DNA of 64,000 bases, taken from positions 1 through 64,000 of the forward strand of contig NZ_SZQA01000017.1 in the NCBI RefSeq assembly GCF_005233835.1, read 5' to 3'. Positions 48,002 through 51,889 of this stretch are shown here, one piece after another. Numbering within the stretch: position 1 is the stretch's first letter; each line of letters opens with the position of its first letter. The position numbers and the translations under genes are program-made. The notes under the pieces are model-generated. The model was not told where the DNA came from. It saw only the letters and a program-made list of their open reading frames with translations, and made no database searches. This DNA comes from Herbidospora galbida (GTDB lineage Bacteria; Actinomycetota; Actinomycetes; Streptosporangiales; Streptosporangiaceae).

Positions 48002-50086
48002 TCAACCGGTGCCGAAGCAGGCGAATCCCGGCACGTCGGTGGCCACGGCCGCGCCCGCGAGGGCCTGAGCCGGGGACTGTCCCCGGGCCAGCAACCGGTG
48101 GAACTCCACCATCAGGCGGGCCGCCTCGTCGTCGCGGACCGGCACGATGCCCGCGATCACCGTGCGCGCCCCTCGGTCGAGGAAGGCCCCCGCCAGCCCG
48201 AACGCCGCTCCGTCGGCGGGAGCCGACGCCATCCCGGCGTCACACGAGGACAGCACCACGAGGGGCGGCACCCGCGTCAGGCGGAAGAACTCGTGCACCA
48301 GGAGCGGGCCGTCGTCCAGGAGGATGCTCGACATCATCGGCCGGCGCCCGGAGAAGATGCCGTGGGCGGCGATGTGCACGATGCCCGCCCGTCCGAGAGC
48401 CTCCAGCAGAGCGGCCCGCGTGGCGGGCACCCGCTCTCCCTTCTCGTGGACGCCCACCACCGCCGCCACCTCCTCCTCCGCATGGGCCAGATCGGGCCCG
48501 GCGAGCGCCACCACCGGCACGCCGACCTCCCGGCGGGTGACGGCCAGCGCGGCCGAAGGGGCGACCGACACGGCCCGCCCGCGCAGCGACGGCAGCAGCG
48601 ACCAGGGCAGGGAGTGCAACGCGACCGTGGGGACCACGCTGACGGCTCCCGGCGGCAGCCGGAGCGGCCGGATCAGCGCCTCGTCGAGCGCGGACAGCTC
48701 CCGCAGGAGGCCGGGTGACAGTCCTTCCTCACCTTCCGGACGGGTGTCGCGGAGGTTTCTCCGGCGCAGGTTGTAGCGGATCCGCACCATCGCCTCGGTG
48801 ACGGCCGACAGCGACCCCAGGCCGTGGAGCGTGACCCGGTCGCCGTGGGCGACTACGGCATGGAGGGCGTCCTGGTCGCGTACCAGCTCGACCAGCACCT
48901 CGGGCCGCTCGGCCACCGGCTCCGCACCGCTGACGAGAGCCCGCCACCGCTCCGACCAGAGCAGCACGTCGTCGGCGCTCTCCTGCCTGATGGCCAGTTC
49001 GAGCCCCAGCGTCGCGATCTCCTCGGCCACTCGGGAAACCCGCCAACGCTCATCGGCGAGCCGCCTCACGTGCGGAACGGCACCGAGTGTCGACGTCACG
49101 AAATTTCGGGACATGCGAATGGCTGGGACCGGCGGCGTGGTGGGGTGCCCGCCCGGACGACCTCCCTCCGTGACCTTGGAGACGCCGTCAGACGCCGATG
49201 CGAATCCACCCGAGTCAGGCATCGCGTCATGATGCCGATCGGTCGGCAGAGGCATCGAGGCAGGCTGCGGTGGCTCAGTAGCGCCCCGCACAGCCGCGTC
49301 CCCGGGCGACGTTTCCGAGGCCAGCCGAGACATCTCCCGGAGCGACTCGGCGAACCCCCGCCGGGTCAGTTCGAGCGCCTCGGCGAGCTCGCCGCCCACC
49401 CATCGCCGCAGCGCCTCCGCGTGAAGCCGCGTGGCCACGCACCCCGACCCGTCCCGGACCCGGTCCAGCATCCGCTGCGCGACCACCAGCCCGCCGACCC
49501 CACGACCGCACCGGCGCACGAACGCCGACACCGCGAACAGCCGCAGCTCATCGGCCTCCGACCGCCACCCCGCAGCCTCCAGTTCATCGGCCCCGGCGGC
49601 GCACTCGCCGAGCAACCCCTCTTCGATCCCGCTCTCGGCCGCCTGCGCCGGCCTGCCCAGCCTCAGTCCATCGTCGAGTCCGTTCTCGGTCGTCTGGGCG
49701 AGCCGCGCCCGTAGCAGCACGTCGCGTGCTCTGGTCTCCCACGCCGCCCGTCCCAGTCGCCCGAACTCCGTCAGCGCCGTCGAGGCCGTGTCCTCGGCCC
49801 GCCGTACATCCCCTGTCAGCAACTCGACCGTCGCCAGCAGCAGCCGGGCGTGCGCAGTGGCAGGGCGGGCCGAGGTCAGGTCGGGCAGGGCGAGTTCGAG
49901 GAGCATCCGGGCCTCGCCCGGGAGGCGTGCTCCGACGAGGGCCGAGGCGAACTCGGCTCGGGTGAGGGCCAGGCGCTCCGGGGACTCGTACAGGGAATCC
50001 TCGGCACTCAGATGGACGTCGAACGCCGCCAGGATGTCGGCGCGCCGGGCCGCCGCGAACGGGCCGTAGGACTCAGGCGCGGACAC
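48002..50086 (-). CDS. CHAT-domain (caspase-like) protease with TPR-like N-terminus
   Basis: A 694-residue protein starting at GTG 50086, overlapping the upstream gene by 14 bp. Residues 1-270 are helical repeat-like (LALTRAEFASALVGARLPGEARMLLELALPDL), about 280-345 a Pro/Ser/Gly-rich hinge, and about 430-694 a CHAT peptidase. The catalytic His575 (VHIAAHG) and Cys615 (VVLSSCDAG) are intact. CHAT proteins are cysteine proteases of the caspase/separase group, often activated by ligands or partners through TPRs. Its place in one operon with a sigma factor suggests it acts on the small middle protein or on the sigma factor (inference). Confidence 0.9.
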   Translation of the reverse strand: MSAPESYGPFAAARRADILAAFDVHLSAEDSLYESPERLALTRAEFASALVGARLPGEARMLLELALPDLTSARPATAHARLLLATVELLTGDVRRAEDTASTALTEFGRLGRAAWETRARDVLLRARLAQTTENGLDDGLRLGRPAQAAESGIEEGLLGECAAGADELEAAGWRSEADELRLFAVSAFVRRCGRGVGGLVVAQRMLDRVRDGSGCVATRLHAEALRRWVGGELAEALELTRRGFAESLREMSRLASETSPGDAAVRGATEPPQPASMPLPTDRHHDAMPDSGGFASASDGVSKVTEGGRPGGHPTTPPVPAIRMSRNFVTSTLGAVPHVRRLADERWRVSRVAEEIATLGLELAIRQESADDVLLWSERWRALVSGAEPVAERPEVLVELVRDQDALHAVVAHGDRVTLHGLGSLSAVTEAMVRIRYNLRRRNLRDTRPEGEEGLSPGLLRELSALDEALIRPLRLPPGAVSVVPTVALHSLPWSLLPSLRGRAVSVAPSAALAVTRREVGVPVVALAGPDLAHAEEEVAAVVGVHEKGERVPATRAALLEALGRAGIVHIAAHGIFSGRRPMMSSILLDDGPLLVHEFFRLTRVPPLVVLSSCDAGMASAPADGAAFGLAGAFLDRGARTVIAGIVPVRDDEAARLMVEFHRLLARGQSPAQALAGAAVATDVPGFACFGTG

Positions 50087-50534
50087 GCAGCCAGCGGGTG
50101 ACCACCGGGGGATCGCTCGGGCGGTGGTAGGCCACGCTCACCCAGCCGGGCGGGAGCCCGGCCACGGCGAACTGGCCGTCGGCGGAGGGCACGCGGACCT
50201 TCGTCACGTGCGGGGTGCGGACCTCGACGTAGGCGTCGGGCGCCGGCGGCGGGCTCACCTGGCCGGCGATCTCCAGGCGGCCCTCGGTGATGGTCGTCTC
50301 GACGTCGAGGGTCGTGTCGCCGGCCGCGAACCGGTGCATCTGGGGCTTTCCGCCCGCCCGTGCGCCGGAGGCGGCCGTCAGGTCGGCCGGGGCCGCGACG
50401 ACGCAGCCGGGCAGGCGCATCGCGAGCGCGGCCATCGCGTCGGCCGCCAGCCGGCCGGGAGCGGGGTCGGCCTGGGCCGCCAGGCGCATCGCCGCCAGCA
50501 TGTACGTCTCCAGCGCGGCGTCGTCAGCACTCAA
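50073..50534 (-). CDS. Small protein with carboxypeptidase-regulatory-like beta-sandwich, between sigma and CHAT
   Basis: A 153-residue protein. The TTG at 50534 is preferred as start because GGAGG lies 6 bases upstream; it lies inside the end of the sigma gene. An Ala-rich helical N-terminus ('DDAALETYMLAAMRLAAQADPAPGRLA') precedes a beta-sandwich domain ('TITEGRLEIAGQVSPPPAPDAYVEVRTPHVTKVRVPSADGQFAVAGLPPGWVSVAYH'), like CarboxypepD_reg domains. It could be an anti-sigma factor or a CHAT substrate. There is no membrane segment or secretion signal. No known anti-sigma motif (ZAS zinc site) is present. Confidence 0.72.
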   Translation of the reverse strand: MSADDAALETYMLAAMRLAAQADPAPGRLAADAMAALAMRLPGCVVAAPADLTAASGARAGGKPQMHRFAAGDTTLDVETTITEGRLEIAGQVSPPPAPDAYVEVRTPHVTKVRVPSADGQFAVAGLPPGWVSVAYHRPSDPPVVTRWLRVRA

Positions 50535-51081
50535 GGGGATCCTCCTTGAGCAGGGTCCGGAGTTTGGCCGAACACCGCGTCCGGGTCGGCCCCACGCTGC
50601 CGATCGGGATGTGCATCCGGGCCGCGACCTGCGCATACCGTACATCTGGATTGAGGGCGAAGAGCCGGAGCATGGTCCGGCACGGCTCGTTGAGCCGGGA
50701 CACGCGCGACCAGAGAGTGCGCCCGTAGTCGGCGTCGACGATCTCCGTCGTCGGATCGGGCGCCGCGAGCGTGGGATGTTCGTAGAGGTCGGGCGGGTCG
50801 GCCGGGAACTCCTGCCCGGCCCTGCGGCCGAGCCGCAGCGCCTCGCGCCGCGTCGTCGTCATCAGCCACGCCCCGACCGCCCGCGGGTCGCGGATGCGGT
50901 CGACGCTCTCGATCAGCCGGAGCCACGCTCCCTGTACGGCGTCGGACGCGTCGGCCGCCCCCAGCCCCGCCGCCCGCGCCACAGCCCACATCTGACTGTT
51001 GAAGCTGGCGACCAGCTCGGACCAGGCATGGTCGTCGAGCAGATCGAGAGGGATCGATTCGTCGTGAACCTCGAAAAGCAC
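50524..51081 (-). CDS. ECF-type sigma-70 family RNA polymerase sigma factor
   Basis: A 185-residue sigma factor with region 2 ('NSQMWAVARAAGLGAADASDAVQGAWLRLIESVDRIRDPRAVGAWLMTTTRREALRLGRR') and region 4 ('LNEPCRTMLRLFALNPDVRYAQVAARMHIPIGSVGPTRTRCSAKLRTLL'); regions 1 and 3 are absent, as in ECF sigmas. It starts with GTG 51081. It is the first gene of the cassette with the beta-sandwich protein and the CHAT protease. GTCAGTGA occurs twice in the 40 bases upstream of its start, possibly part of an autoregulated promoter. Confidence 0.9.
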   Translation of the reverse strand: MLFEVHDESIPLDLLDDHAWSELVASFNSQMWAVARAAGLGAADASDAVQGAWLRLIESVDRIRDPRAVGAWLMTTTRREALRLGRRAGQEFPADPPDLYEHPTLAAPDPTTEIVDADYGRTLWSRVSRLNEPCRTMLRLFALNPDVRYAQVAARMHIPIGSVGPTRTRCSAKLRTLLKEDPLEC

Positions 51082-51391
51082 GCGTCACTGACCCTTTCCG
51101 CACCAGCCTCACTGACTGTGCTGACAGAGGAGCGTTGCGTGAGCAACTCTAGCCATGGTGTCCGGCGCCGCCCGGTGAGATCGCGGAATTCCGGAAGGGT
51201 GGCCAACTTCCACGATCGCGCCGATTTACGCCTTGAGGAGAGACCGATTCGCCCGGCGGCCAAGCGGGAATCGGTATGACCCTCCTCTGGTGCCCCGCCG
51301 CGACGGACGGTAGTCTCTCCTAGAGTCACTTGTGATCATCCCAGTATGAGGCCGTTGGGGAAGGCGCACCTCGTACGAATCGGGAGGTCCG
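51082..51391. other. 310-bp divergent intergenic region
   Basis: This is the gap between the sigma gene and the DUF3145 gene, which run apart. It contains two copies of TCACTGAC (at 51085 and 51109), a short GTTGC/GCAAC inverted repeat near 51132, and a TAGAGT hexamer near 51320 that could be a -10 for DUF3145. No RNA gene or open frame with coding character was seen. Confidence 0.6.
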
Positions 51392-51889
51392 GTGGCTGCT
51401 GCTCGTGGCGTCCTGTACGTCCACTCGGCTCAGCCTGCGCTGTGCCCACACATCGAGTGGGCCGTCGCAGGCATTCTTGGCGTTCCCGTCGACCTGACGT
51501 GGACGCCCCAGCCCGCTGCGCCCGGCGCCCTGCGCGCCCAGGCCGAATGGGAGGGGCCCGCCGGCGTCGCCGCCAAGATCACCTCTTCGCTCATGGGGTG
51601 GCAGCGCATCCGCTTTGAAATCACCGAAGACCCGTCGCCGGGCAGCGACGGCTCCCGCCATGCGTACACCCCCGCCCTGGGCGCCTTCACGGCGACCATC
51701 GGCGTCAACGGCGACATCCTGATCCCGGAGGACCGCCTCCGGAACGTCATGCTGATGGCCAGCCAGGGGCGCGCGGTGCTGGAAGACGAACTCGACAAAC
51801 TGCTCGGCAAGCAGTGGGACGAGGAACTGGAGTCCTTCCGGTACGCCGGCGAGGGCGCTCCGGTGCGCTGGCTCCACGCGGCCGTCTAG
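51392..51889 (+). CDS. DUF3145 family protein
   Basis: A 165-residue protein from GTG 51392, preceded by GGGAGG. 'RGVLYVHSAQPALCPHIEWAVAGILGVPVDLTWTPQPAAPGALRAQAEWEGP', 'WQRIRFEITEDPS' and 'LEDELDKLLGKQWDEELESFRYAGEGAPVRWLHAAV' match DUF3145, a family confined to actinobacteria. In streptomycetes the gene lies next to the FAS operon (after fabF), so the synteny supports the call. Function unknown. Confidence 0.92.
   Translation: MAAARGVLYVHSAQPALCPHIEWAVAGILGVPVDLTWTPQPAAPGALRAQAEWEGPAGVAAKITSSLMGWQRIRFEITEDPSPGSDGSRHAYTPALGAFTATIGVNGDILIPEDRLRNVMLMASQGRAVLEDELDKLLGKQWDEELESFRYAGEGAPVRWLHAAV

Follow-up and report, generated by a model that had tools for sequence, protein, structure and literature searches.

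Several described systems invite comparison with a cluster of three genes in a 64,000-nucleotide stretch of DNA from Herbidospora galbida (positions 1 to 64,000 of contig NZ_SZQA01000017.1, hereafter ‘the window’). The cluster encodes an extracytoplasmic function (ECF) sigma factor, a small protein that we call the middle protein, and a CHAT protease. Among the systems to be compared, CalpL-CalpT-CalpS is said to use a SAVED-Lon protease, which belongs to another family and is activated by cyclic oligoadenylate. Sigma factors of group ECF54 are defined by the possession of regions 2 and 4 and by the lack of a long extension. In the accessible text of a review (PMC8999054, citing Casas-Pastor 2021 and Huang 2015), ECF54 genes are described as having conserved carboxypeptidase, subtilase and CHAT neighbours, the group is represented by SFT86700.1 from the actinobacterium Geodermatophilus, and proteolytic control without an anti-sigma factor is proposed. 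In the type III-E CRISPR system Craspase, as presented in the accessible part of PMC10028731, the TPR-CHAT protease Csx29 cleaves Csx30, which is an inhibitor of the ECF sigma factor CASP-sigma, a cut that would set this sigma factor free.

The ECF54 context in print fits the cassette examined here very closely, and the cassette as such is therefore not new. Both comprise an ECF sigma gene with subtilase and CHAT neighbours, and the carboxypeptidase-type neighbour described for ECF54 in the accessible text of PMC8999054 has at most a candidate counterpart in the middle protein, whose CarboxypepD_reg similarity is sub-threshold. The 185-amino-acid sigma factor of the window, with its regions 2 and 4, and the neighbouring CHAT gene are ECF54-like features, whereas the subtilase of the ECF54 context is lacking from the window locus, which is a difference in genetic context rather than in the sigma factor. 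A first-pass annotation of the window, made from its letters alone, had left undecided whether such a trio was already described in actinomycetes. The gene context is in print for ECF54 in the accessible text of PMC8999054, and no experimental study of the cassette was found in the literature searched, which mostly excludes subscription papers.

Our best explanation, which we hold tentatively and with somewhat less than even confidence, is that the window trio is a reduced member of the published ECF54 context in which the middle protein would act both as a soluble cytoplasmic anti-sigma factor and as a protease substrate. In the mechanism envisaged, the N-terminal helices of the middle protein would hold the sigma factor in a compact and inactive state, while its beta sandwich would hang from a floppy linker. 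An intracellular signal would then lead CHAT, and in most relatives perhaps an S8 subtilase also, to cleave the middle protein, and this cleavage would free the sigma factor for RNA polymerase. We infer the binding, the inhibition, the cleavage and the order of these steps from the observations and predictions described below.

The Herbidospora trio

Three open reading frames on the minus strand of the window encode the sigma factor, the middle protein and the CHAT protease, with overlaps of 11 and 14 bases between neighbours:

50524 to 51081, minus strand: ECF sigma factor, 185 amino acids, GTG start at 51081 and stop at 50524, with regions 2 and 4
50541 to 50547, minus strand: ribosome-binding site AAGGAGG of the middle gene, within the sigma gene, with a 6-base gap to the TTG
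50073 to 50534, minus strand: middle protein, 153 amino acids, TTG start at 50534 and stop at 50073, its first 11 bases lying within the sigma gene
48002 to 50086, minus strand: CHAT protease, 694 amino acids, GTG start at 50086 and stop at 48002, its first 14 bases lying within the middle gene

These coordinates agree with the first-pass annotation, which had described an overlapping minus-strand trio with a 153-residue middle gene that begins at a TTG within the sigma gene behind a strong ribosome-binding site. Its two enzyme-level assignments, an ECF-type sigma factor and a CHAT peptidase with His575 and Cys615 intact, were likewise confirmed. The sigma factor scores above the cut-offs for Sigma70_r2 (E=7.5e-10) and TIGR02937 (53.7 bits, cut-off 42.9, matched end to end). 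Pfam returned no region-4 match for this protein, and the region 4 stretch GSxGPTxxRC is retained in most aligned sigma relatives. The CHAT protein passes PF12770 (E=1.2e-31), and the two catalytic residues are invariant in an alignment of six proteins. All seven Herbidospora copies, the window counted, share the same start codons for the middle gene (TTG) and the CHAT gene (GTG), and all seven carry GGAGG upstream of the middle TTG, at a longer spacing in L036.

The CarboxypepD_reg-like domain proposed for the middle protein stands as a similarity that lies below threshold (14.8 bits, cut-off 32.3). Two of three middle-protein relatives are also sub-threshold for this model (best 31.3 bits against 32.3), and the third has no match. 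A sequence search of PDB with the middle-protein profile returned five matches, all with E of 0.11 or worse. The motif HxxxCxxC, which is characteristic of zinc-binding anti-sigma factors, occurs in 0 of 289 middle domains, and the window middle protein has a single Cys. A transmembrane helix is unsupported in the window protein (top 19-residue Kyte-Doolittle mean 1.51), and this mean exceeds 1.6 in 3 of the 289 domains.

A constant sigma-middle pair with shifting proteases

Genes of the middle family are close to universal within the window's order, the Streptosporangiales. With a threshold of E <= 0.001, and with paralogues and some weak matches included in the counts, the middle-family profile found a match in 288 of the 297 genomes drawn from the order, 136 of 393 from the class, 21 of 66 from another class and 50 of 396 sampled from the phylum; a middle-protein search of genomes near the window gave a match in 28 of 41. 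Because it is nearly universal in the order, the family is unlike a mobile defence island. A reading as a defence system was dropped, as the PADLOC matches are weak (CHAT to BovA, 36.2 bits; the S8 protein of a relative to a subtilase model, 29.3 bits, and to IetS).

To describe the surroundings of the sigma gene, we used the best 80 of 574 confirmed loci from a sigma-side scan of named genomes, which are those nearest to the window's sigma factor and thus not a random sample. The nearest named relative among them is from Herbidospora solisilvae (95%), and none is from Geodermatophilus. The middle gene directly follows the sigma gene in 80 of 80, and the flanking DNA holds CHAT in 64, S8 in 66 and both in 53, where the protease counts are lower bounds because contig ends often cut the flanks. 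Of the 56 loci with at least 15 kb of sequence, 52 have CHAT and 48 have S8. The three-gene order suggested earlier is thus conserved for sigma and middle genes and in most cases includes CHAT, whose place and orientation vary. The trio had also been called self-contained, and this description fails, given that S8 is present as a second protease in 66 of these 80 relatives.

Loci chosen from the middle side give a similar picture. Of 84 middle-protein matches, 74 are immediately preceded by a sigma gene in the same orientation, and within 9 kb these 84 rows comprise 45 with sigma, CHAT and S8, 14 with sigma and CHAT, 4 with sigma and S8, 11 with sigma alone and 10 without sigma. This count treats each of the split genes L049 and L150 as two rows and omits L154, L156, L157 and L158, which are weak matches whose middle domain was not reached at 1e-4, as well as L058, presumably a ROK-like false match. 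In a third set, the middle gene directly follows sigma in 94 of 98 cases, and the other 4 are without sigma. The sigma-middle-protease arrangement is far beyond chance.

Most relatives examined carry a fourth gene near sigma, most often directly upstream, and its product is an S8 subtilase (PF00082, E 2.5e-22 and 3.6e-24 in two relatives examined). Over 149 sigma-bearing loci we counted 17 gene layouts, and the middle gene follows sigma in every one. The commonest are S8-sigma-middle-CHAT (52 loci), sigma-middle-CHAT (22) and a reversed CHAT gene followed by S8-sigma-middle (18). Four repeat loci were removed from this set, and loci cut by contig ends were counted, from which some of the layouts arise. 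The CHAT His/Cys pair is complete in 125 of 125 aligned copies (6 partial pieces left out) and the S8 Asp/His/Ser triad in 120 of 120 (6 left out); some genomes are counted twice in both figures, and further repeats between genomes may remain in the catalytic-residue and layout counts. Since two unrelated proteases are kept intact beside one sigma factor, proteolysis is likely to be part of the work of the cassette.

Viewed against this background, the window trio looks like a reduced form of the four-gene cassette, as it lacks S8 and its CHAT protein has a short N-terminal part without a TPR match. A scan of 20 kb of the window found no S8 gene next to sigma, and the six other Herbidospora loci and three Acrocarpospora loci likewise showed none. 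The S8-less loci among the best 80 number 14 (Herbidospora 1, Acrocarpospora 3, others 10), some of them on short contigs. The N-terminal part of the window CHAT protein is shorter than that of most relatives; no Pfam TPR model matches the window protein, whereas TPR models are matched by the N-terminal parts of both CHAT relatives examined. Middle and CHAT domains lie close together in Herbidospora, with a spacing of about 1187 bases in the window as calculated from coordinates, 1262-1343 in five other Herbidospora and 1520 in the sixth, values towards the short end of 93 same-strand measurements (median 1707 bases). The Acrocarpospora distances, at 2017 and 2073 bases, are not short.

Predicted arrangement of the sigma factor and the middle protein

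For the window middle protein alone, AlphaFold predicts helices at residues 3-19 and 27-38, with a predicted local distance difference test score (pLDDT) of 65-80 by blocks over residues 1-40. Residues 53-60 fall below 50, and the beta sandwich predicted from residue 65 onwards is mostly >90. The predicted layout is thus one of N-terminal helices, a floppy linker and a C-terminal beta sandwich. A Foldseek search with this protein gave no match at E <= 0.001, and the 50 matches listed include weak FN3/Ig-like ones.

A model of the pair could be built as one chain from a locus in a Sporichthyaceae metagenome-assembled genome (L193), where sigma and middle genes share one frame and are parted by one stop. 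Reading this stop as Ser gives a chain of 346 residues with a natural linker. The AlphaFold input was an alignment of 45 rows (6 such chains and 39 middle proteins) in which the placement was checked; a one-chain alignment of 135 rows was discarded, as MAFFT had placed the middle N-terminus onto sigma. The resulting model has a pLDDT of 87.7 and a predicted template modelling score (pTM) of 0.66. Its middle part is predicted to form two helices (200-214 and 219-246), followed from residue 260 by a beta sandwich (pLDDT 93-98). Confidence is high (90-95) in the blocks spanning 191-230, which take in helix 1 and the beginning of helix 2. The second half of helix 2 (231-250) drops to 71 and 52 in turn, and 248-255 is <50. 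The segment that joins regions 2 and 4 of sigma has a pLDDT of 68-70.

Foldseek comparison of this chain with PDB gave CnrH/CnrY with a TM score by target of 0.61 (root-mean-square deviation, rmsd, 5.1; E 2.8e-3), RpoE/NepR with 0.60 (rmsd 5.5) and SigW/RsiW with 0.55 (rmsd 5.7). SigJ (rmsd 8.3) and SigK/RskA (9.0) fit less well, and the listed polymerase-bound sigma factors have rmsd values of 26-27 and SigG1 one of 24. Only two matches reach E <= 0.001, namely AlgU/MucA (rmsd 12.1) and sigmaE/RseA (13.9). The modelled sigma factor is therefore compact, and it fits several, although not all, anti-sigma-bound sigma factors better than it fits polymerase-bound ones.

Coevolution was assessed by mean-field direct coupling analysis (DCA) of 193 sigma-middle pairs and then of 289 pairs (effective number of sequences 208). 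The top 20 couplings between the two proteins in the larger set reach 4.94, against 3.27-3.72 for within-cluster re-pairings, in units of the real spread, and thus exceed those of all 12 such controls. The helices account for 11 of the top 20 pairs, 23 of 50 and 48 of 100, shares that are above fully random pairing and not above within-cluster re-pairings. A patch of helix and loop (middle residues 11-18 with sigma region 4) that had been chosen post hoc performed no better than 24 within-cluster re-pairings and was abandoned.

Evidence for and against an anti-sigma role

The proposal that the middle protein is an anti-sigma factor and protease substrate draws support from the constancy of the sigma-middle pair while CHAT and S8 shift in place and orientation. 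It is also consistent with the higher pLDDT of the helices when modelled beside sigma in L193 (90-95) than in the window protein alone (65-80), a comparison between two different orthologues. Cleavage of Csx30 by Csx29, as given in the accessible part of PMC10028731, offers a precedent by analogy. The signal-protease-transcription switch that the first-pass annotation had suggested is in this sense strengthened, in that the unit is conserved, the catalytic residues are intact and the predicted structure fits an inhibitor role without proving it; the self-contained aspect of that suggestion does not survive.

Several considerations weigh against this proposal, for which the support is wholly computational. 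The accessible text of PMC8999054 describes ECF54 control as free of an anti-sigma factor. The L193 model was judged from pLDDT, pTM and Foldseek fit, and its pTM of 0.66 means that the relative places of the domains are only partly settled. A reading of this value as showing docked helices was rejected, given the poor prediction of the second half of helix 2; that half, with its pLDDT of 71 and 52, holds the best-conserved helix motif, and the window's family has a shorter helix 2. The compact sigma factor may be AlphaFold's default. Foldseek E-values are modest (2.8e-3 for CnrH), the two matches with the lowest E-values, AlgU/MucA and sigmaE/RseA, have rmsd values of 12-14 despite being anti-sigma-bound, and SigK in its anti-sigma complex (9.0) fits no better than SigJ, which is listed without an anti-sigma factor (8.3). 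Finally, shared descent can produce an excess of DCA couplings over re-paired controls, and DCA on 289 pairs favoured neither the helices nor any other site, such that the interface was not located.

Perhaps the sigma factor is itself the protease substrate. The middle protein would then serve as an adaptor or chaperone, either delivering sigma to CHAT and S8 or protecting it against both, and proteolysis would switch the response off. This idea is near the ECF54 proposal of proteolytic control without an anti-sigma factor (accessible text of PMC8999054), and a constant sigma-middle pair with movable proteases fits it equally well. We nevertheless regard it as unlikely, as the predicted sigma arrangement resembles several anti-sigma-bound sigma factors and the longest floppy stretch of the models (pLDDT <50) lies in the middle protein, compared with 68-70 for the segment joining regions 2 and 4 of sigma.

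The proteases could also be the output of the system. A sigma factor held by the middle protein would turn on CHAT and S8, which would act on other proteins in stress, development or cell death, and ligand binding to the beta sandwich, not cleavage, would release the middle protein. The beta sandwich is predicted to be a separate and confidently folded domain, and CHAT and S8 are often reversed relative to sigma-middle and so form their own transcription units. Overlap of the three window genes in one apparent operon speaks against this arrangement, and a search for short words in the upstream regions yielded only descent-conserved sequence and no sigma-dependent promoter; we therefore consider it quite improbable.

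Decay or specialisation of the Herbidospora trio as a paralogue that, after losing S8 and some of its TPR region, no longer acts as the ancestral switch would agree with the missing S8 match in the window (20 kb) and six other Herbidospora loci, the short CHAT N-terminal part and the presence of an S8-sigma-middle set on another contig of the same genome, but is very improbable given that the six other Herbidospora copies retain the catalytic pair and keep 88-96% identity in sigma, 86-99% in the middle protein and 64-82% in CHAT (the L036 value for CHAT coming from two matches in the same frame).

Upstream region, neighbouring genes and additional loci

The region upstream of the operon contains a short conserved element:

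51082 to 51160, minus strand: operon upstream region, holding the conserved inverted repeat
51147 to 51134, minus strand: inverted repeat GTTGC-TCAC-GCAAC, invariant in 7 aligned Herbidospora copies, the window being one of the 7

This repeat is a possible promoter or operator candidate. Word and dyad counts over 130 upstream regions were rejected as promoter evidence, yielding only descent-conserved sequence common to about 38 loci.

The divergent neighbouring gene at 51392-51889 on the plus strand, which is DUF3145-like, has a relative in 56 of 167 loci and in 38 of 80 named loci, and in this family the cassette therefore occupies a single inherited site on the chromosome. Genes that are fabF-like lie near the cassette in 36 of the 167.

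Two more middle genes are present in the H. galbida genome. One belongs to a second S8-sigma-middle set (L100, C110:1908-4333), downstream of which lies a frame that resembles an ATPase instead of CHAT. Contig ends carrying CHAT (C113 and C25) were considered as completing this set and were dropped, as the following frame there resembles an ATPase. The other middle-family gene (L101, C33:680-2090) directly follows an S8 subtilase gene, and a sigma match was not found alongside. Another genome carries two successive S8-CHAT-middle sets, only one of them with sigma (L140, G132:C7).

Some middle-family genes (L105, L110, L114, L122 and L132) do not have this sigma factor directly upstream, and CHAT was not seen in their examined flanks; an S8 match is present at L114, and at L122 a weaker match to sigma lies on the opposite strand. 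Perhaps these middle genes regulate a distant sigma factor. A sigma-less middle gene is also present in another Herbidospora (L410).

Comparison with known systems

Craspase and the window, as far as the accessible text on the former goes, each combine a CHAT protease, a small inhibitor-like protein and an ECF sigma factor in one locus. The parts nevertheless differ. The window CHAT protein scores 10.5 bits with the Csx29 model against a cut-off of 300 and is not Csx29, a search of its own genome with that model gave three matches, all under the cut-off, and a PDB search with the CHAT alignment gave four matches, all TPR proteins, with Csx29 not among them. Similarly, Csx30 is not among the five PDB sequence matches of the middle protein or the 50 fold matches listed, and most cassette relatives carry a subtilase as well. 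A triad of protease, anti-sigma factor and sigma factor is shared with CalpL-CalpT-CalpS, as far as the partial account of that system shows; the SAVED and Lon domains of the CalpL type have no Pfam match in the three window proteins.

By fit, CnrH/CnrY and RpoE/NepR are the best matches to the predicted sigma arrangement. CnrY and NepR are small two-helix anti-sigma factors, and the middle protein differs from them in its predicted C-terminal beta sandwich and in its linked proteases. What is new here is the predicted domain layout of the middle protein and the fit of the modelled sigma factor to some anti-sigma-bound structures.

A broader proposal, possible but doubtful, is that the middle family constitutes an unrecognised class of soluble actinobacterial anti-sigma factors, composed of a helical clamp and a beta sandwich and cut by both CHAT and S8. 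The cassette would then be a chromosomal counterpart of Csx29-Csx30-sigma that is free of CRISPR, although no search was aimed at CRISPR parts, and its near-universality in Streptosporangiales would suggest a core circuit of stress or development rather than a phage-defence island. If so, transcription across a large actinomycete group would be under the control of a caspase-like protease outside any CRISPR context, and two proteases of different folds would serve a single switch. Small genes and a common layout make the proposal directly testable. With respect to ECF54, the accessible text of PMC8999054 presents control without an anti-sigma factor, whereas our model gives that role to the middle protein and, if true, would revise the view that ECF54 sigma factors act without one.

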